A DNA stretch of 64,000 nucleotides, taken from Symbiodinium natans (taxonomy: Eukaryota > Sar > Dinophyceae > Suessiales > Symbiodiniaceae). Where the stretch lies: positions 290,001 to 354,000 of the forward strand of contig CAJNDS010002373.1 in assembly GCA_905221605.1 (NCBI GenBank), read 5' to 3'. Positions 48,025 to 59,954 of the stretch are shown one piece after another. The position numbers and the translations under genes were made by a program. The first letter of the stretch is position 1; the number at the start of each line of letters is the position of its first letter. The notes beneath the pieces are model-generated. The model made no database searches and was not told where the DNA came from. It saw only the letters and a program-made list of their open reading frames with translations.

Positions 48025-48579
48025 CTTGTGTGTAGAGGATCTCCGGACACAGCCAACACAGTGCTTGCACAATAGGTGAAGGAAAAGGCAACTTATTGAC
48101 TTGTTAAATGCCTTGTCGCCTTTACTTTACGATGACTAAGAGGTTCCAAAAGAGTTCATAAACGTGCTAACTTTGTTAAAGCTCTGTCTGTCCTTCCTCA
48201 TAGTATGGATTGCATCGTTCGCCTCAGGAACCTATTCGATGTCTGAGCCAGATGTCCAAAATGTGAGTGGTGCAAGTGACTGACTCTTCGCCAGTGTGCA
48301 CTGTACGTCGTCCTCGTAAACAGGAGTGGGTGGCCCGACAATGACCAGGAAGCAGCCACGGGAGCACAGTCTTGAGTTGAAGATTTGAGCATCGGCATCC
48401 GGCAAGGTGAGCTAAGTGGGATCTTGACGAGCCTGTCTTGTTGATGATGCCAAGGGCAAGAAAGAGATCCTTGAAAGGTTGCAAGGTTCGGAGGTGATGT
48501 GCTTGAACTGGAAGACCATAGCCAGAAGAGCGGTTTCTGAAACAGGCTGGCTGTAGCTCAGGGGCTGCCATGTCTGTTG

Positions 48580-48790
48580 TTGTTGCTGTCGCACTGTTGC
48601 TGTTGCGCTGTCGAGTCGCTGTTGAGTCCCTTTTGGGTCGCTGTTAAGTCGCTGTTAAGTTGCTGTTGAGTCGCTGTTGAGTCGCTGTTGAATCCCTGCT
48701 AGGTCGCTTTTGGGTCGCTTTTGGGTCGCTGTTGGGTGGCTGTTCAGTCGCTGTTGAGGTCGCTGTTGAGTCGCTGTGCGGCTGCTGCTG
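48580..48790. repeat. 11-bp minisatellite
   Basis: Degenerate tandem units of TCGCTGTTGAG and variants (TAAG, TGGG), about 18 copies, preceded by GTT/GCT triplets. The 11-bp period runs through all three frames, so the Gln/Ser/Thr open frames here are artefacts. Confidence 0.85.
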
Positions 48791-52075: not shown

Positions 52076-53338
52076 CTAAGAAGATACTTCGGGGCAGGTT
52101 CCGTTGGTCAGGAGTGCCTTGAACTCGGCAGCTGGGACCCCTTTGCCACACACGCGCTCTGCAATGCAGGCTGCGCTCACACTCGTCTTGTGCACTGGTG
52201 CAGCCCACGAGCAACTCTCCGTTATCTGGGTGTCTGGGCATCTGCCGGCAGACGGCACTGAATACCACACCCCTTGCGCTTCTCCACACTGGCCCTGAAA
52301 CTCACCCATCTGCCCCCGCTGATGTGGCATGAGGGCCAGTTGCCGCCCGATCGCTCGGCCACGGCCTTCGCAAAGGTTCTGGCCCTTCCGGAACCAACAC
52401 TTTCGGTAGAGGCCCCAAGATGTGTTTGCGAGAATTGTCCAATGAGTGATGATGTCATCGGGCACCTGCGTGTCTGATCGGAGCACAAAGGAGCTTTTAC
52501 AGAGCAAGTGCATTGACGCGTCTGCATCAGCAAAGTTTCGATCCACTACCGATATGTCTTCCTTTTGGCCATGGATGCGATACAGTTCCACATGCTGAAT
52601 CTGGCCTTCATCACAAATTCTTTCCATCTTCTCCCTGCATGCTCTGGGCAGGTCAAACACGTCGGCAGGTATCGGCCCCACTTTGATGTCGGAGACTGAG
52701 AAATTGGTTTTGACACTTTCCGAAGAGACAGTGACTTCCCGGGGCACTCCATCTGCCAAGCACACTGACACCGTGGTGCCAGGCTGGATAGCACCTCCAA
52801 CTAACGGCATTGGGTCCAGAAAGGGGTCGCTGAGCCAACTTGTTGAAGGGACGGTCCAAGTCCAAGATGCACACTGCTCTCCGTCGAGCGTTTTCTTGCC
52901 GCTGCGCTTTGCTGAGGGCAGCCACTGAAAAGGGCTGCTGAGATTTTCTTCTTTCATCAGAATGAACATACAGTTTGCTTCAGCACCCTCTCCGAAACTA
53001 CCAAAGCGGTTGTAGTTGAACTGCGATGCGGGCAAGAGGAGATCACTTATCGCGAACACTCCGTACTGATCCGCACGGAAACGCTGATTCGCAGCATCGT
53101 ACCACCAGGTTTGAGAGTAGTTCCGCGTCTTCGTAGTGACTGTGAGATTGGCCTGCCAGGAACCCGGTAGAATCGTCTGGAGGCCGGCGCGGTGCTGAAG
53201 CACGTGCAAGCCAGCCTCGCAATCCTCGCAATCATTCAGGGCAACCGCGATGTCAGCCACAGAAGCTGACACGCAGCCCAGCGGCAAGCAAAGCCCAACG
53301 AAGGAGAAAGCAAGGGACAACAGTGTCATTCTCGCCAT
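52076..53338 (-). CDS. Intronless secreted protein, 420 aa, ependymin/LVN1.2-like N-terminal part plus Cys-rich tail
   Basis: The longest open frame in the window: ATG at 53336-53338, stop TAG at 52076-52078, uninterrupted. Residues 1-26 form a signal peptide (hydrophobic LLSLAFSFVGLCLPLG, then VSASVA). Six N-glycosylation sequons (NLT, NYS, NLS, NFS, NTS, NGT) and 16 cysteines downstream of residue 30 fit an extracellular or secretory-pathway protein. Residues about 60-235 contain W-YDAANQR, a central C..WTWTVP and the closing TNFSVSDIKVGPIPADVFDLP, resembling ependymin/LVN1.2-like lipid-binding domains (tentative family call). Residues 235-420 are a Cys-rich region with no recognised domain. 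No transmembrane anchor is seen at the C-terminus. Lack of introns, next to an intron-rich neighbour, and the degenerate spliced leader upstream suggest origin by retroposition of an mRNA. The function is unknown. Confidence 0.9.
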   Translation of the reverse strand: MARMTLLSLAFSFVGLCLPLGCVSASVADIAVALNDCEDCEAGLHVLQHRAGLQTILPGSWQANLTVTTKTRNYSQTWWYDAANQRFRADQYGVFAISDLLLPASQFNYNRFGSFGEGAEANCMFILMKEENLSSPFQWLPSAKRSGKKTLDGEQCASWTWTVPSTSWLSDPFLDPMPLVGGAIQPGTTVSVCLADGVPREVTVSSESVKTNFSVSDIKVGPIPADVFDLPRACREKMERICDEGQIQHVELYRIHGQKEDISVVDRNFADADASMHLLCKSSFVLRSDTQVPDDIITHWTILANTSWGLYRKCWFRKGQNLCEGRGRAIGRQLALMPHQRGQMGEFQGQCGEAQGVWYSVPSAGRCPDTQITESCSWAAPVHKTSVSAACIAERVCGKGVPAAEFKALLTNGTCPEVSS

Positions 53339-53374
53339 CTTAACGAGCCTGAGCTCTAGAACGCTTCAACAAGC

Positions 53375-53390: not shown

Positions 53391-54474
53391 TTCGGACGGA
53401 ATGGTCATCACTGCTACAAGGTTGGGCTTCAAGCAGAGCACATCGCAAGCGTTCTTGTTCTTGCACTGACCCCGCTGGAAAAGTGGTCTTTCGCACTGTC
53501 GAAGTGCAAGACATCATGCGTCTAGCACGGAATGCTCGACCAAGCCAAGATCAAGAAACACAGATACTCGATGCGTCGTTAACACCCTGCTCTACCAGCA
53601 ATTCGAGTAAATTTGAGACCTCGAATCTGGGGAGCACTTCTGGCTCCAAAGCCCCACTGGCATTGGCATACAAGTTGCTTGGGCTTCTGGGACCATGATC
53701 TTCTGAAGCAACTGATGCCAGACTCTGAGCCCACTATCGTGCCGCACCTCTGGCTATGGCCGCGATCGTAAAGAGGATGTAGGAGGCTGCCACTCTGACT
53801 CGCTTGAAACGACTGACTCATGTGAGGGTCGTGCTTCTAGTACTTCGCACAACTCTCCGACCTGTCATAACTTATAACCAGTTCAATGTCAACCCTACAG
53901 CTCCATAGCACAACCCGAAACGGATCGCTGATTTCTCATCGGGGTCAACACGTGAACGGGGATGGGGGCCTGCTCATGACGAAGCACTTCAAGCTATGGC
54001 TAAGTTTGGACCCGTCCGGGCAGGTGGGCATTCTAAGCCCAGCGCAGTGCCCCAACCTGCTACTACAAATTGCTCAAGCTTGGGACTGAAGTTGCAAATG
54101 GGGCGCCCATCTCAGGTGCCGCATCTACACACTCACGCCGAAGCGGTCGCGGTACTCCTTCGAGACAGGTCTTGGCCGTTGGCCCCGTTGGCACGGTTTT
54201 GGCATCAGAGCTGAACTTCGCCTTTGAGAGATGAACCTCCACCTCGGTTTAGCGTCGAGATTGCTTCTGCTTACTACTAGAGAGCGGTCAGATACAGCGT
54301 TGGGTCGAGCCGGAAGGATGAAGGAAGTTGAAAGATGAGGTGTGGCGGCGTATTCTGCGGAATGCTTGGTTCGAGAGTGCTGGCACACAGTGGGTGGAAT
54401 TTCTTACACAGATTGGGCGATTGTAGCTGGAGCGCCTGTCCCAGAACCACGGTTGATTGAGAAGGAATGCGACG

Positions 54475-54523
54475 TGAGTCCTTGATGCTCTGCAGCAGCG
54501 CCTCTCGATCATCCTTGTCATAC
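54475..54523 (-). CDS. pyrE: pyrE exon 12 (3' end not fixed)
   Basis: After a 75-nt GT-AG intron the frame continues as YDKDDREALLQSIKDSR, resembling the last amphipathic helix of PyrE. The frame remains open for about another 65 codons without a convincing family match, so the stop codon or a further exon is unresolved. Confidence 0.6.
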
Positions 54524-57500
54524 CTGACCCCCGAGCCAACAAACTGTGATAACATGCTGCGTCCGCCACCTCTCGAAGGCCCAAAACCTACAAAGAACTT
54601 TGGACCAAGCCGCTTCTTATCGATGAAGGTGATCAAGTCCTCCATCTTCGCAATGCTCATGACCTTCGCCGCTCGTCTCACTTGCCCTCCCCTCCCTTCC
54701 TCATCCTAAATCTTCTCGCAACTGGACCCCTAAACCAATAGCCGGGCGGAAAACTGACAGGGAGTTGTCCTCTTTACACGGGAGACAGGAGCCATTGCAA
54801 AGAAACAACAGCCTAGGTCCGAAGCAAAAAACTCAACACTCTCAAGCCCGATCTGCCCCGAGCTATGCAAGTCTGGAACGCAGCAACAGTCGAGGGTGCA
54901 AAGGCATACAACTCATGCAACCGATGAACCCTGAGTTTCGACAAGGAAACATCGGAGTACACATTCGTCACCCTTAGACCTCCCTTCCTCACCATCACAT
55001 TGAATTCAGCGCCGTGCCGGAATGCCAAAGTCTCGCTCCACCTCCGCCATTGATGCCGCTTGTAGGGGTGGGGAAGCAAGCTGTTGAATGTTGAAGGGTC
55101 ACATTCTCTCGGGTATGAGGGTCCAGCCCGAAGCTGTTCCGCTCAAAGGCCCCAAAAAACAACAGAAGTATGAACACACCAATACTTCCCCTGAGCTTTG
55201 CAATCTGGGTTGGGAACGCAGGGCGTTCCCGCCGAGAGTTGTGGCCTCCTTCCCCCCCCCCCCCAGCCTCCTTCTTTCCTTTTTCTTCCTTCTTTTCACT
55301 TCCTTCCTGTTGCTTCCTGTTGCTTCCCTTTTGAAGCCGGAAGTGATGACTGCCAGAATACACTTGCCCAGATTTGACTCTCTCTCTCTCTCTCTCTCTG
55401 TCTCTCGCTTAGCCCCCCCCAAAGGGAAGGCTGCCCCAAGGGGCGCGCGAGTCTGAAGGTCAGTCTGATTTAGATTTTGTATATCTCTCTCTGGTTTTCG
55501 AATTGTAACTGATGGAGATCGCGCGTGAGTAGTCGTAGAAGGTTCTGCATGGCCCCCGACATGATATCCCCATGGCACAACTCCCTACCCCCAACACCTT
55601 GTTTAGACATAATGGAAACTCGACCCCAACCAAACCCTATCGATGTGCAGTCCATTGCATGTGACCTTCCCTGCTGAAGCGCTCGGAGTTTCCTGAGGTT
55701 GCAACGAAGTAAGTTTTAGGGTTTTCCTTAACCAAGCTCTCATGCGCTGTGTCTTCCAGTCTCCACGTCGCTTGGGCCAAGACACATCCCCAATTCGTGA
55801 AATCTTGCGCGCCAGAGCAGCCCTCCCTCTTTCCCTCCTTACTCGCAATGAACATGATGGAGCGTTCAACAAACTCGTGACGTGGATCCGTGACATGGAT
55901 CCGTGGTAGAAATCCCCTTGTCTCTCATTGACAAGGCTTTACATGCACCAAGGGTTTCGGGCAAGGTAAAGGGGCCAAGCATGAACGCATCAGCGGCCTG
56001 TTGGATGGCTGACACGTTCTCGTCCTCTTTGACCTTCTCTTGACGGTCCATCCTGACATGAACGCAGAATGTGGAGGCGGAGCTACGATCACTTCTTTGG
56101 AACGAGTTTCCTGAACGCCGGGAGCAGCACCCTCACAAAGGCGTCATCACATAAGCACCCTAAACTAAAGCCGAGACCTGTTTGGATTTGGTTGTGCATC
56201 TACGGATCGGGCCACGAAAGCAACCCAAAAATTTCAACGTCACCCACCCCACCCTAACTCACTCCGATATCCAGCCCCAAATCAGCGAAAAAAACTCCAA
56301 ATCCGAGCCCGAAGCCACGGGCTTTGAAACCCCGGTTTTGAACCTGAACAGTGGAACCCCCTGCAGCCCAGGAGCGCCACTGCGACCCCGACGACCTGCA
56401 GCTCTCGCTGCGCAGCCAGGAGGTCCATGGACCTCTTGAGGCTGCTCTTGGGAGGGGGCAGGTGGGGGTCGGGTGGGGGCGGAGTCTCAGAATCTGCTCA
56501 ATCTCGAAGACTGCGCTGCTAAGGGCAAAGCTCGCGTATGGCAGTCCCCGCTGTGATGACGTCGTCCACAATGAGCCTGGGAGCCCTGAAGTATCCCTGA
56601 GGTAGCCCGACATGATGGTTGGCTCTTGCTGTTGACATGTTGCAGTCTGCAGGAAGCCCCCTAAAGGCCCTAAAGCCATAAAGGAAAACCAAAAAGCCGC
56701 CCTCTTGCAAAAAAACATCAGAAGAGGTCCGAAGCCCAGGAGCACTCGGCCAGTCAGCTTTCCGACGATCAGCCCGCCCTCACCATGATCCTGCCAAAAC
56801 CAACTCCTATAGCTTTGCAGGTCTAACAAACGGCGGTTCGGGGCATCAAGCTTTAGCGATTTTTGTTGGCGCTCCAGCGACTCTAGCGCTCTTGCCGGAC
56901 ATGCTCACTGTCAGTGAGCATGTAGAAGGATGCTGCAGGCACACTCTGGTGGACGTGCCCGCGAGCCCCGAGCGTTTTCAGGCAGTCAGTCCCAAGTAGG
57001 TGCGGTGATATACAGCGATAAGCAGCCGATGGGTGTTTTGAGCCTGTGCGAACCGGCAGCATCCCTGCGCAATGTGGTGCAAGCTCTCGATCTAAAGGCG
57101 CGTGGCGGGCTCTTGGGCTGATGGGAAAGAGTGCCTCACTCTCATTCTCACTTCCTCGGCAAGACTCTCTGCGCACTTCAAAGACCCCCGAAGGGTGGCC
57201 GTGCCGGGGGCCTTATGGGGTGCGCCACTCTCTCCTCTTCTTCTTCTTCTTCTTCTTCTTCTTCTTCTTCTTCTTCTTCTTCTTCTTCTTCTTCTTCTTC
57301 TTCTTCTTCTTCTTCTTCTTCTGCAGGGCTTGGGGGAGAACCCCCGCGCACCAGGCGCGCCCGGAGGTGAGTCAAGTCTCGGTGAAATTATGGCGATGGG
57401 CTCATGTGGTTGCCACTCTCTCTCTCTCTCTCTGAATGTGTTTTGCCACAGGCTTGCAGAGACCCTTTTAGCCGTGTGTTCCCTGAAATGCCCCGACTGT

Positions 57501-58552
57501 CAGAGTCCTTGGCCTCCTTGCGGTTGTAAGCGTAAGGCACGCTCCGCCCTGAGCTTCTCATGGCTTTGGGGTTGCCACGTGTTGCATTCTCGTCTCCTGA
57601 GGTCCTAAGAAACTTCAAATCGGCCCTCAAAAGATTGAAAAGAGCTTCTACAGAACAGCTGGACGCTGCAGGACGAGGCCCCTAGCACGTATCCAAGGCC
57701 ACTGAAAACTTCCAAGAGACATGATTGCTGCGACTAGAGACTAGAGCCGATGGAGCATGTATCGACTAAGGCATGCCAAGTCTGCTTCGGGTTCAATGCA
57801 CTGGCATCTCAGACTAAAGAACCCAAGGCCGACGCCACTACCGTGGACCCCCCGCATGCGCCATGAAGGTTTTACGTTGAGCTCTCTGCCGAGTTCGAGC
57901 CCTGGCGTGGAGCGAATTTTGGTCCTGATTTCTCCAAGCCCCAAGCTCATCCCAAGTGCTTCTTGAAAGCTGTGCTAGCCAAGCGACCGTGATTCTTGTA
58001 TAGCGCGATGGCTATCCTGCCGATGTCAAGGAGGTTGCTCTGATAGTGAGATTCTGCTATTCGTGGTGCACATTTCCTTGCCGAGTGCTTTTCTTGTTGT
58101 AGTCTTTCTCTTCTTCTTCTTCTTCTTCTTCTTCTTCTTCTTCTTCTTCTTCTTCTTCTTCTTCTTCTTCTTCTTCTTCTTCTTCTTCTTCTTCTTCTTC
58201 TTCTTCTTCGTCTTCGTCTTCTTCGTCTTCTTCTCAGCGCGCAAAACGAGGTCATGCAGGATCGAAACCCCCCTGCGTGCAGCCGCGCACCCATCGCCTG
58301 GGTTTCAGGCACGTGTGTCGCCTCTTTCCGGTCGTCGCTGTGACACTGGTGTTGACGACAACAACTGCCCCTTGCCCACACAGGTGCCGGGAGCTGGGGA
58401 GGGTCTGCAACCATGTCACACAGGCTCGTCGTGAAATCAACATCAGCGGGGGTGGCAGGGCATATGCAGGACTGCTGCTTCCACCTTGATTCGAGTTTCC
58501 GTTGGGCCGGTAATCTCTCTTCTACGGTGCATGAGGGGTAGGGCAGAAGTCC

Positions 58553-58588
<36 letters not shown>

Positions 58589-58663
58589 GCACGCATAGCC
58601 CCCCCCGAAGGGAAGGCCGCCCCGAGGGGCGCGCGACGTCCGAGGGTCCGTCTGATCCCCCCT

Positions 58664-58708
<45 letters not shown>

Positions 58709-59954
58709 TCTCGAGGTTTGAAGGTTGTCCGGTCGCAAAGCATGAGTTCCGTCCGCGTTCCGAGGGCTACGCAAAAGCTTGAGGGTTTCGCTTGCTTTGA
58801 AGGGCGTCTGAAATGCTGCCAAGCCACGCAGCTGCTAAGGTGATGCCTTTGTAGGCGGGGCCGAAGATGCAGTCAAACCTGAAGGCTTGGGGCCCTCTGG
58901 TGCGAGTCTATGCTGGATTGCCACATTCAGTTTAGGCTTTGTGGCATCAAGTCCGTGCACGCATGCTCTAAAGGGGTGTGGAACCGAGAGAATCCGATAG
59001 AAGCAGCGCAGCTCTTGGAGTGACAGAACTGGGCCACCGGCTCTACGCCAGATGCAACGATCGCATCGGCATAGAAATCCCCCAACCTCTCGAGGGTTTG
59101 CTCTCAGAAAGTACATGTCGGATGGGGCTGAATTCGTTAACTCTCCCGTATTGCAGCAAGCAAGGTAGGTACGACCCTCTGTAGTGCAGAGCACCCCTGA
59201 CCTACAGCTGCTGGCCGGGAGGCCTTGCCAAGGCCTCCCCAGTCGTGAAGAGGCCGGCGTTAAAGAAATACGGTGATGTCCTCTGACACTGGCGAATGCG
59301 TGCGAGGCTCTGGTTAGTAGCTGCTAGCCAGAGCCCTGCAGGGCCTTTTGGAGCTTCGTTGCTTGGTCAGGTAAACCTCCTTTTTCCTAGAGACTTCGCC
59401 CGCCCCGATGACCTCCTGAAGCGTGAGCTACCACAAGCCTTGCAACTCTCAGACCATGGTTGAACCCTTCCGACGACGCTCCCTCAACATGGACTTGCAG
59501 TGAGCTTACATCCCCAGTGTCCGGCCCGACTTCAGCGTGAACTGGCCGAAGCGGAGCACCTGACTATGCAGACCGGGAGGGGTTTTTGGGTTGTGGGCCG
59601 GCCTTCCAGCACCACAAGTACCCTTGGATTTGTAGGGTTTTTTTTTTTCTGAGGATGCAAAAGCCGTCCTTTCCCACAAATACATACAAATACTGAAAAG
59701 GTTCCCGTAACTTTAAGATAATCTGGGGGGCCGGAGGCGTTTCAAACCCACGAGTTTTTTGGCCCGGCAATGTGGGGCATGCGCAGGGATGCCGGGGGAG
59801 CCCCGCAATGCCCAGACCTGCTCCGGTCAGGTCTAAGGTCGCGATCGAGATCTAGGTCGCGATCGAGCTTGCACCTTTGTATGCAACATAAAAACCGCAT
59901 TCCGGCCTCCTGCGACAGTGCAAACTCGACGAAGCCATGTGCCACACCGGCCAT
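54475..59954 (-). CDS. pyrE: Orotate phosphoribosyltransferase, PyrE/URA5 type, at least 12 exons
   Basis: Converts orotate and PRPP to OMP in de novo pyrimidine synthesis. Twelve exons (listed separately) read in transcription order give all family landmarks: EFALSQE/VLRFGQFTLKSGR at the N-terminus, SPYFFNAGLF, YADAIVASGVEFD, FGPAYKG, NRKEAK/DHGEGG (the flexible catalytic loop with its Lys and His), the PRPP-binding loop VDDVITAGTA, the DRQE motif, and a C-terminal SIAKMEDLI strand-helix. Exon phases agree at every junction tested. Summed length is about 205 codons, close to the 213 residues of E. coli PyrE, and the motifs resemble the bacterial/fungal URA5 type rather than the animal/plant UMPS type. 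Introns are about 75-1330 nt. Counting intron donors down the gene gives GC, GA, GC, GC, GC, GA, GC, GC, GC, one unresolved (exon 10) and a GT; all acceptors are AG. The start ATG (59952-59954) follows an AG acceptor at 59963-59964, which could take a spliced leader. The exon 10 end and the stop codon are not fixed. Fusion to OMP decarboxylase was looked for upstream and not seen. Confidence 0.9.
54599..54663 (-). CDS. pyrE: pyrE exon 11
   Basis: Encodes VMSIAKMEDLITFIDKKRLG and more, corresponding to the C-terminal LSIVTLDDLI strand-helix of PyrE. The acceptor could be the AAG before GTC or one about 17 nt upstream. The frame is open upstream to a TAG at 54706-54708. The donor GTTCTT follows 54599. 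Confidence 0.75.
55378..55469. repeat. CT array plus GC-rich hairpin module (intron of pyrE)
   Basis: (CT)n at about 55378-55407, then a module at 55411-55469 starting AGCCCCCCCC, with GGGAAGG and a GCCCC..GGGGC stem. It matches the module at 58597-58656 closely, with a few G/A differences. It lies in the intron between pyrE exons 10 and 11. Confidence 0.85.
55998..56052 (-). CDS. pyrE: pyrE exon 10 (3' limit uncertain)
   Basis: Encodes MDRQEKVKEDENVSAIQQ after one base completing Ala. DRQE followed by SAIQ is as in URA5/PyrE. The frame stays open further (AADAFMLGPF and on), so the exon may be about 15-60 nt longer. The end given is the minimum supported by homology. The following intron, about 1.3 kb, contains a CT array and a GC-rich module. 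Confidence 0.82.
56376..56441 (-). CDS. pyrE: pyrE exon 9
   Basis: Encodes LKRSMDLLAAQRELQVVGVA and one further Val, with split codons at both ends: the helix and strand after the PRPP loop. The GC donor at 56374-56375 joins to exon 10 to give VAMDRQE, matching the VALDRQE motif of the family. Confidence 0.9.
56532..56576 (-). CDS. pyrE: pyrE exon 8, PRPP-binding loop
   Basis: Encodes LIVDDVITAGTAIR with split codons. VDDVITAGTA is the type I phosphoribosyltransferase PRPP-binding motif with its paired aspartates. Joining exons 7 and 8 gives TGRVLIVDDVITAGTA without a gap. GC donor at 56530-56531, 90-nt intron. Confidence 0.96.
56744..56790 (-). CDS. pyrE: pyrE exon 7
   Basis: Encodes DHGEGGLIVGKLTGR plus two bases of Val. 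This is the second half of the flexible loop. AG acceptor (TTTTGGCAG) and a GC donor at 56742-56743. Confidence 0.94.
57234..57322. repeat. TTC microsatellite, about 29 units (intron of pyrE)
   Basis: Nearly perfect TTC/CTT array, preceded by a GC-rich stretch beginning CCCCGAAGGG and followed by GGGGGAGAACCCCC. It lies in the intron between pyrE exons 6 and 7. Confidence 0.95.
57508..57548 (-). CDS. pyrE: pyrE exon 6
   Basis: Encodes RSVPYAYNRKEAK after two bases completing Gly. NRKEAK is the first half of the flexible loop that carries the catalytic Lys. The exon ends at a GA donor (57506-57507), phase 0; the next exon begins directly with DHGEGG. The 717-nt intron contains a TTC array. 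Confidence 0.93.
58107..58235. repeat. TTC microsatellite, about 42 units (intron of pyrE)
   Basis: Long TTC array ending with GTC interruptions. Open frames through it (poly-F, S, L or E, K, R) are artefacts. It lies in the intron between pyrE exons 5 and 6. Confidence 0.95.
58555..58705. repeat. CT arrays flanking a GC-rich hairpin module (intron of pyrE)
   Basis: (CT)n at 58555-58587 and 58671-58705 bracket a module at 58597-58656 homologous to that at 55411-55469. It lies in the intron between pyrE exons 5 and 6. Confidence 0.88.
58820..58878 (-). CDS. pyrE: pyrE exon 5
   Basis: Encodes FDCIFGPAYKGITLAAAWL. FGPAYKG is the conserved turn of the OPRTase fold. The first base completes Glu of SGVEFD. 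GC donor at 58818-58819, followed by a 1271-nt intron holding CT arrays, a GC-rich hairpin module and a long TTC array. Confidence 0.92.
59042..59086 (-). CDS. pyrE: pyrE exon 4
   Basis: Encodes LGDFYADAIVASGV, starting with one base that completes the Arg of ALAR and ending with two bases of Glu. GC donor at 59040-59041. An alternative acceptor a few codons upstream is open but would break the phase with exon 3. Confidence 0.88.
59224..59280 (-). CDS. pyrE: pyrE exon 3
   Basis: Encodes TSPYFFNAGLFTTGEALA with split codons at both ends. SPYFFNAGLF is diagnostic of PyrE/URA5. AG acceptor and GC donor (59222-59223). Confidence 0.92.
59522..59559 (-). CDS. pyrE: pyrE exon 2
   Basis: Encodes VLRFGQFTLKSG plus two bases of the next codon. 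AG acceptor at 59560-59561 and a GA donor at 59520-59521. Joining to exon 3 across this GA-AG intron restores Arg and gives the family signature SGRTSPYFFN. Confidence 0.88.
59907..59954 (-). CDS. pyrE: pyrE exon 1
   Basis: Sixteen codons from an ATG in good context, reading MAGVAHGFVEFALSQE. EFALS immediately before VLRFG matches the start of bacterial PyrE. A GC donor follows at 59905-59906, phase 0. An in-frame extension upstream of the ATG is open for a few codons, so an earlier start or a further 5' exon is not excluded. Confidence 0.8.

Follow-up and report, generated by a model that had tools for sequence, protein, structure and literature searches.

Orotate phosphoribosyltransferase (OPRT) catalyses the fifth step of UMP synthesis, in which orotate is joined to PRPP to yield OMP. 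The bacterial pyrE genes coding for it consist of one open frame, and yeast URA5 likewise encodes a stand-alone OPRT, of the same subtype as the protein described below. As for gene structure in Symbiodinium natans, the relevant passages of a published account (PMC10666404) give averages of 15.7 exons and 14.7 introns per gene, a mean exon of 106 bp, a mean intron of 486 bp, and a mean coding sequence (CDS) of 1660 bp with 58.2% GC. The donors listed there are GC (58%), GT (23.6%) and GA (18.4%), and 97.1% of the acceptors are AGG; much the same splice-site pattern appears in the corresponding passages on other Symbiodinium (PMC4083563, PMC5177918). Full-length (IsoSeq) transcripts have reportedly been produced for S. 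natans CCMP2548 (PMC8045281). Mobile introns, or introners, are recognized in the same account by terminal inverted repeats of 8-20 nt together with direct repeats of 3-5 nt (PMC10666404), and those of dinoflagellates are reported to occupy sites at which AG is followed by G, hereafter AG/G (Roy 2023, cited in PMC11453091).

In this work, we describe a pyrE/URA5-type gene in a 64,000-nt stretch of S. natans contig CAJNDS010002373.1 (the window). On the minus strand, from 59954 to 54125, 15 exons join into one open frame of 663 nt that runs from ATG to TAG and codes for 220 residues (table 1). The exons measure 24-57 nt (mean 44.2, median 45, n = 15) and the introns 90-956 nt (mean 369, n = 14); the donors are 9 GC, 3 GA and 2 GT, and all 14 acceptors are AG/G. 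A preliminary description, based on motifs and reading phase, had placed about 12 exons of 38-66 nt at 54475..59954. Many tiny exons are indeed present, but there are 15 of them, separated by 14 introns; 12 fall inside that size range, the others measuring only 29, 24 and 33 nt, and 14 lie inside that interval while the terminal exon with the TAG stop (54157-54125) lies beyond it. The predominance of GC-AG introns also held, although the earlier tally of ten donors (7 GC, 2 GA, 1 GT) is replaced by the one given here.

Table 1. Exons of the pyrE/URA5-type gene and other features of the locus, in window coordinates
Feature	Position	Strand	Length (nt)	Donor	Remarks
Exon 1	59907..59954	-	48	GC	ATG start; upstream in-frame TGA
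Exon 2	59522..59559	-	38	GA	Model and automatic alignment
Exon 3	59224..59280	-	57	GC	Model and automatic alignment
Exon 4	59042..59086	-	45	GC	Model and automatic alignment
Exon 5	58828..58878	-	51	GT	Model and automatic alignment
Exon 6	57988..58016	-	29	GT	Model and automatic alignment
Exon 7	57508..57548	-	41	GA	NRKEAK, part of the catalytic loop
Exon 8	56744..56790	-	47	GC	DHGEGG
Exon 9	56532..56576	-	45	GC	PRPP-binding motif VDDVITAGTA
Exon 10	56376..56432	-	57	GC	Donor missed by plain E. coli query, found by other queries
Exon 11	55998..56052	-	55	GC	MDRQE
Exon 12	55018..55041	-	24	GC	Microexon, VERDFGIP
Exon 13	54614..54663	-	50	GC	Exact donor unsure
Exon 14	54481..54523	-	43	GA	Model and automatic alignment
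Exon 15, terminal	54125..54157	-	33		EYRDRFGVSV, family C-terminus; TAG stop
Intron 13	54524..54613	-	90		Probable only
Intron 2	59281..59521	-			Possible introner relic, repeats at ends
Dispersed repeat in intron 5	58552..58715	-			Many genomic matches
Dispersed repeat with (CTT)n in intron 5	58090..58234	-			Genomic matches
Dispersed repeat with (CTT)n in intron 7	57228..57433	-			Genomic matches

When the minus strand is translated in three frames and read from high to low coordinates, the motifs FGQFTLKSGR, SPYFFNAGLF, YADAIVASGVE, FGPAYKGI, VPYAYNRKEAK and DHGEGG appear in the order of the family, followed in the same order by VDDVITAGTA, MDRQE, VERDFGIP, VMSIAKMEDLI and KEYRDRFG. The joined protein is 57% identical to E. 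coli PyrE (PDB 1ORO; 121 of 212 aligned residues), with which it has its length and catalytic motifs in common. As the preliminary description had anticipated for the joined exons, it matches the PyrE model TIGR00336 of NCBIfam (188.4 bits, cut-off 106.8); it also matches Pfam PF00156 (52.2, cut-off 26.3). All 18 matches in a PDB search at E 0.001 are OPRTase, OMP or UMP synthase, or phosphoribosyltransferase by name, the top one scoring 255.9 bits. Of the 51 alignment columns that do not vary among 62 reference sequences, 50 are retained, the exception being the proline at E. coli position 76, which is a threonine here; yeast and 3mjd each break one such column as well. What we take to be the eight catalytic positions of OPRT (K26, R99, K100, K103, H105, D124, D125 and R156 in E. 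coli numbering) are present without exception. An in-frame TGA lies 13 codons 5' of the ATG, with no other ATG in between, and the CDS has 58.1% GC, with a GC3 of 0.75 (164/220).

A permissive aligner always returns something, and the exon chain could in principle be a chance product of small look-alikes chosen from 6 kb. We aligned E. coli PyrE to the DNA with a purpose-written spliced protein-to-DNA aligner, whose resulting model was then completed by hand. This kind of alignment, which the preliminary description had proposed with GC and GA donors allowed, scored 433 at the locus with GT, GC and GA donors. When both strands were cut into 34 tiles of 7 kb, the three tiles overlapping the gene on its own strand gave 433, 275 and 194, and the remaining 31, serving as controls, gave 56-98. 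Null proteins at the locus itself stayed in the same low range, with 92 for reversed PyrE and at most 96 for 30 shuffled versions. Moreover, a search of the genome (759,417,921 bases in 2543 contigs) with the joined protein and no splicing model, in which 10 candidates were scored, placed all 10 matches inside the pyrE locus. The gap between 433 and the chance scores of up to 98, together with these splicing-free matches confined to the locus, indicates that the gene is real; the exons, besides, are ordered and all on one strand. Chance alignment is thereby refuted, its probability being practically nil, and a PyrE/URA5-type gene cut into many tiny exons on the minus strand is confirmed well beyond chance.

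The same search bears on the claim that the exons would be missed by ORF calling, which proved correct: the top single match in the genome reached only E 5e-4, although the query was the protein of this very gene. Reading exons by motif and phase can thus recover a complete dinoflagellate gene that is nearly invisible to six-frame and ORF methods. Among the 10 matches to the joined protein in the whole genome there was no second pyrE copy. In control searches, E. coli pyrG and purA gave 0 matches at E 0.001, which says nothing about whether these two genes are present.

Tiny exons and a possibly incomplete assembly might also suggest a decayed pseudogene or a set of exon relics, with a working pyrE elsewhere. 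We consider this very improbable, given 663 nt without a stop or frame break, the 50 of 51 invariant columns retained, the high GC3 and the absence of a second copy among the genome matches. The features of the locus point instead, with a high degree of confidence, to a functional stand-alone pyrE/URA5-type OPRT gene, found once in its genome, whose CDS is interrupted by spliceosomal introns of the kind usual in this lineage. In such a gene, a transcript would be made and spliced as modelled, the spliceosome removing introns with GC, GA or GT donors and an AG acceptor followed by G. The 5' end of the mRNA would probably be supplied by spliced-leader trans-splicing, for which a suitable AG lies 8 nt upstream of the ATG, and the mature message would direct the synthesis of a 220-residue enzyme with the predicted activity of converting orotate and PRPP to OMP.

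In the junction model, donors were restricted to GT, GC and GA and acceptors to AG, while the donor mix and the base after AG were left free. With E. coli PyrE, the score was 228 with GT donors, 389 with GT and GC, 433 with GT, GC and GA, and 443 with any donor. The climb from 228 to 389 and 433 as GC and GA were admitted shows that both are needed. The extra 10 points gained with any donor correspond to shifts at a few junctions and to another C-terminal path, and since 443 is slightly above 433, the donor classes lean on the constraint imposed.

The number of introns recovered, out of 14, was 10 with E. coli PyrE and 13, 13, 13, 13 and 12 with five other related query proteins, none of these runs preferring AG/G. 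A Chromatiales PyrE query recovered 13 automatically, and 12 under one of three settings. The E. coli query, which reached 12 of 14 when AG/G was preferred, departs in the last third of the gene: in its plain form it misplaced introns 10, 12, 13 and 14. The other queries put introns 10 and 12, and mostly 14, at the positions of the model, and their misses fall in the C-terminal third. When the intron penalty was lowered and AG/G preferred, twelve runs recovered 12 or 13 of the 14, five of them adding one or two introns close to the C-terminus.

The splice sites are those usual for the species. Nine GC, three GA and two GT donors fit the published S. natans mix (chi-square p 0.71), and AG/G at 14 of 14 acceptors fits the published 97.1%. 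The assignment to a dinoflagellate-type gene in the preliminary description therefore agrees with the published figures, whereas its remark that the locus is extreme even for dinoflagellates fails as far as splice sites are concerned. The gene is also like S. natans genes generally in the GC content of its CDS and in its number of exons, judging by the gene-structure passages cited above (PMC10666404). It differs from them in the density of its introns, its exons averaging 44 nt where the species mean is 106, and its CDS containing 21.1 introns per kb where that mean is 8.9; under a plain Poisson model, 14 or more introns would have p 0.003, although real genes vary more than Poisson.

For comparison, enolase was searched in the same genome. 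Matches occurred on 11 contigs, and seven places were modelled automatically, with no hand curation; one of these (L129, score 129, near the null scores of 61-100) was excluded from the counts. Four copies are intron-rich, with 18, 22, 9 (partial) and 14 (partial) exons and mean exons of 72, 56, 55 and 51 nt, respectively; together they have 29 GC, 15 GA and 15 GT donors among 59, and AG/G at 54 of the 59 acceptors. Two further copies are intron-poor, with 2 and 3 exons. Dense introns are therefore found in other genes too and are absent from some copies, and pyrE, with the same donors as the four copies at 51-72 nt, looks like the dense end of a normal range and not a class apart. It is an ordinary dinoflagellate housekeeping gene, unusually finely cut, and it shows that a Symbiodinium-like genome contains genes whose exons are close to 44 nt. 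We also observed that the intron-rich (18 and 22 exons) and near-intronless (2 and 3 exons) enolase copies are on contigs C159, C2290, C835 and C1739 of this genome, G000 (L126, L127, L130 and L131), and that the proteins of C835 and C159 look nearly identical on visual inspection, which would fit a retrocopy origin of the C835 copy.

When each pyrE intron was retained in turn, 12 of the 14 introduced a stop and intron 8 shifted the frame. Intron 13, if retained, leaves the frame intact and brings in no stop, and its donor varies between runs, exon 13 ending alternatively at 54606, 54611, 54617 or 54622. Exons 13 and 14 may accordingly be read as a single 183-nt exon carrying a 30-residue insert near the C-terminus, in a gene of 14 exons, the 90-nt stretch being in frame and stop-free. 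We regard this reading as unlikely. The stretch starts with GC and ends with AG/G as the other introns do, and its GC3 of 15/30, compared with 164/220 in the CDS (p 0.003), suggests that it is non-coding. Such an insert is absent from the aligned sequences of 3n2l, 1lh0, 1sto, 1oro, 3mjd and yeast URA5. Additionally, introns this short do occur in the genome, the enolase copy on contig C159 (L126) having 17 that measure 58-129 nt. Intron 13 is therefore probably real, and pyrE has 14 introns, at minimum 13.

The TAG follows the OPRT domain directly, and there is no C-terminal fusion with OMP decarboxylase (OMPDC) of the kind that would make a UMP synthase. A fusion on the upstream side was also considered but not found in a weak test of the upstream 12 kb, in which E. 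coli PyrF gave a spliced score of 128, just above its 20 shuffles (at most 119), and yeast URA3 gave 105, below its own 20 (at most 122). The PyrF path contains no OMPDC motif by eye and has AG/G at 3 of its 12 acceptors, and we judged it to be noise. Elsewhere in G000, at C1125:271900-272874 on the minus strand, two adjacent phosphoribosyltransferase-domain matches above the Pfam cut-off share one 493-codon frame with no stop between the domains, unlike pyrE.

As for the neighbourhood, a Pfam scan of ten long window ORFs gave no match at E 0.1, and neither Rfam and tRNA scans nor a plasmid DNA search gave a match. A literature search on dinoflagellate OPRT and dinoflagellate microexons returned no title on this gene among the matches listed. 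On the same strand as pyrE and 0.76 kb downstream of it, a 429-codon open frame (52079-53365, minus strand) has a Met at its tenth codon, followed by a stretch that resembles a signal peptide by eye; it is without a Pfam match at E 0.1. Across pyrE from it, at a distance of 17 kb (69100-70565 in window coordinates, in L134), there is another copy, in which the frame is broken in two; the two copies share 95.5% identity over 1476 bases.

The relatives of the protein are nearly all gammaproteobacterial among the at least 80 loci matched. Identity is highest with Chromatiales PyrE, up to 62.9% over 205 residues, the best among the matches listed, while yeast URA5 (PDB 2PRY), with 50.5% over 204 residues, is less similar to the window protein than the bacterial enzymes are. 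For a tree, 59 of the at least 80 loci passed a filter on motifs and start and 21 were dropped; yeast was the sole eukaryote. The window protein was placed among the gammaproteobacteria, at an open fork, and separately from yeast. Nevertheless, a forced grouping with yeast was not rejected (AU p 0.44), nor was one with yeast and 3mjd (p 0.47). Given the AU p of 0.44, the tree cannot separate bacterial transfer from descent shared with fungi, and a bacterial origin claimed from the tree was dropped.

Regarding the origin of the introns, intron 2 carries an 8-nt near-terminal inverted repeat, GACACTGG, and the 5-nt flanking repeat GGACA. In its short terminal inverted and flanking repeats it is like the introners of dinoflagellates (Roy 2023, cited in PMC11453091), whose AG/G sites are shared by the introns of the window gene. 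It is the one intron among the 14 with this combination, noticed post hoc, and by rough arithmetic an 8-nt match would be expected by chance in about 0.2 of 14 introns, in fewer so near the ends. Intron 2 may be an introner relic. For the introns generally, an introner origin was also examined and was not adopted. A genome search with the introns, in which the best 40 of 354 candidates were scored, gave 114 matches; apart from those to the locus itself, every one is confined to three stretches within introns 5 and 7, and none is a whole-intron copy, although common words were skipped and weaker copies may escape such a search. The bases common to both ends of an intron average 2.6, and those in mismatched pairs of donor and acceptor 2.3 (p 0.08 by permutation); flanking repeats are no longer than in the mismatched pairs.

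A bacterial pyrE is one open frame, whereas the gene in the window has 15 exons. It is conceivable, though rather doubtful in our view, that a gammaproteobacterial gene arrived intronless and gained all 14 introns within dinoflagellates, mostly at AG/G sites, with intron 2 as the relic of a mobile intron. If so, the locus would be a record of intron invasion, with one intron per 47 coding bases, and a bacterial origin, once proven, would turn it into a clear example in which the introns gained since the transfer can be counted.

Other repeats were noticed in and near the gene. Two 87%-identical copies of a short element, made of a (CT)n tract and a GC-rich stretch, lie at 55378-55469 and 58562-58656, in introns 11 and 5, and the one in intron 5 is matched at many places in the genome. 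At 48576-48777, the window also contains a short array of diverged repeats with offsets of 44-99 bases.
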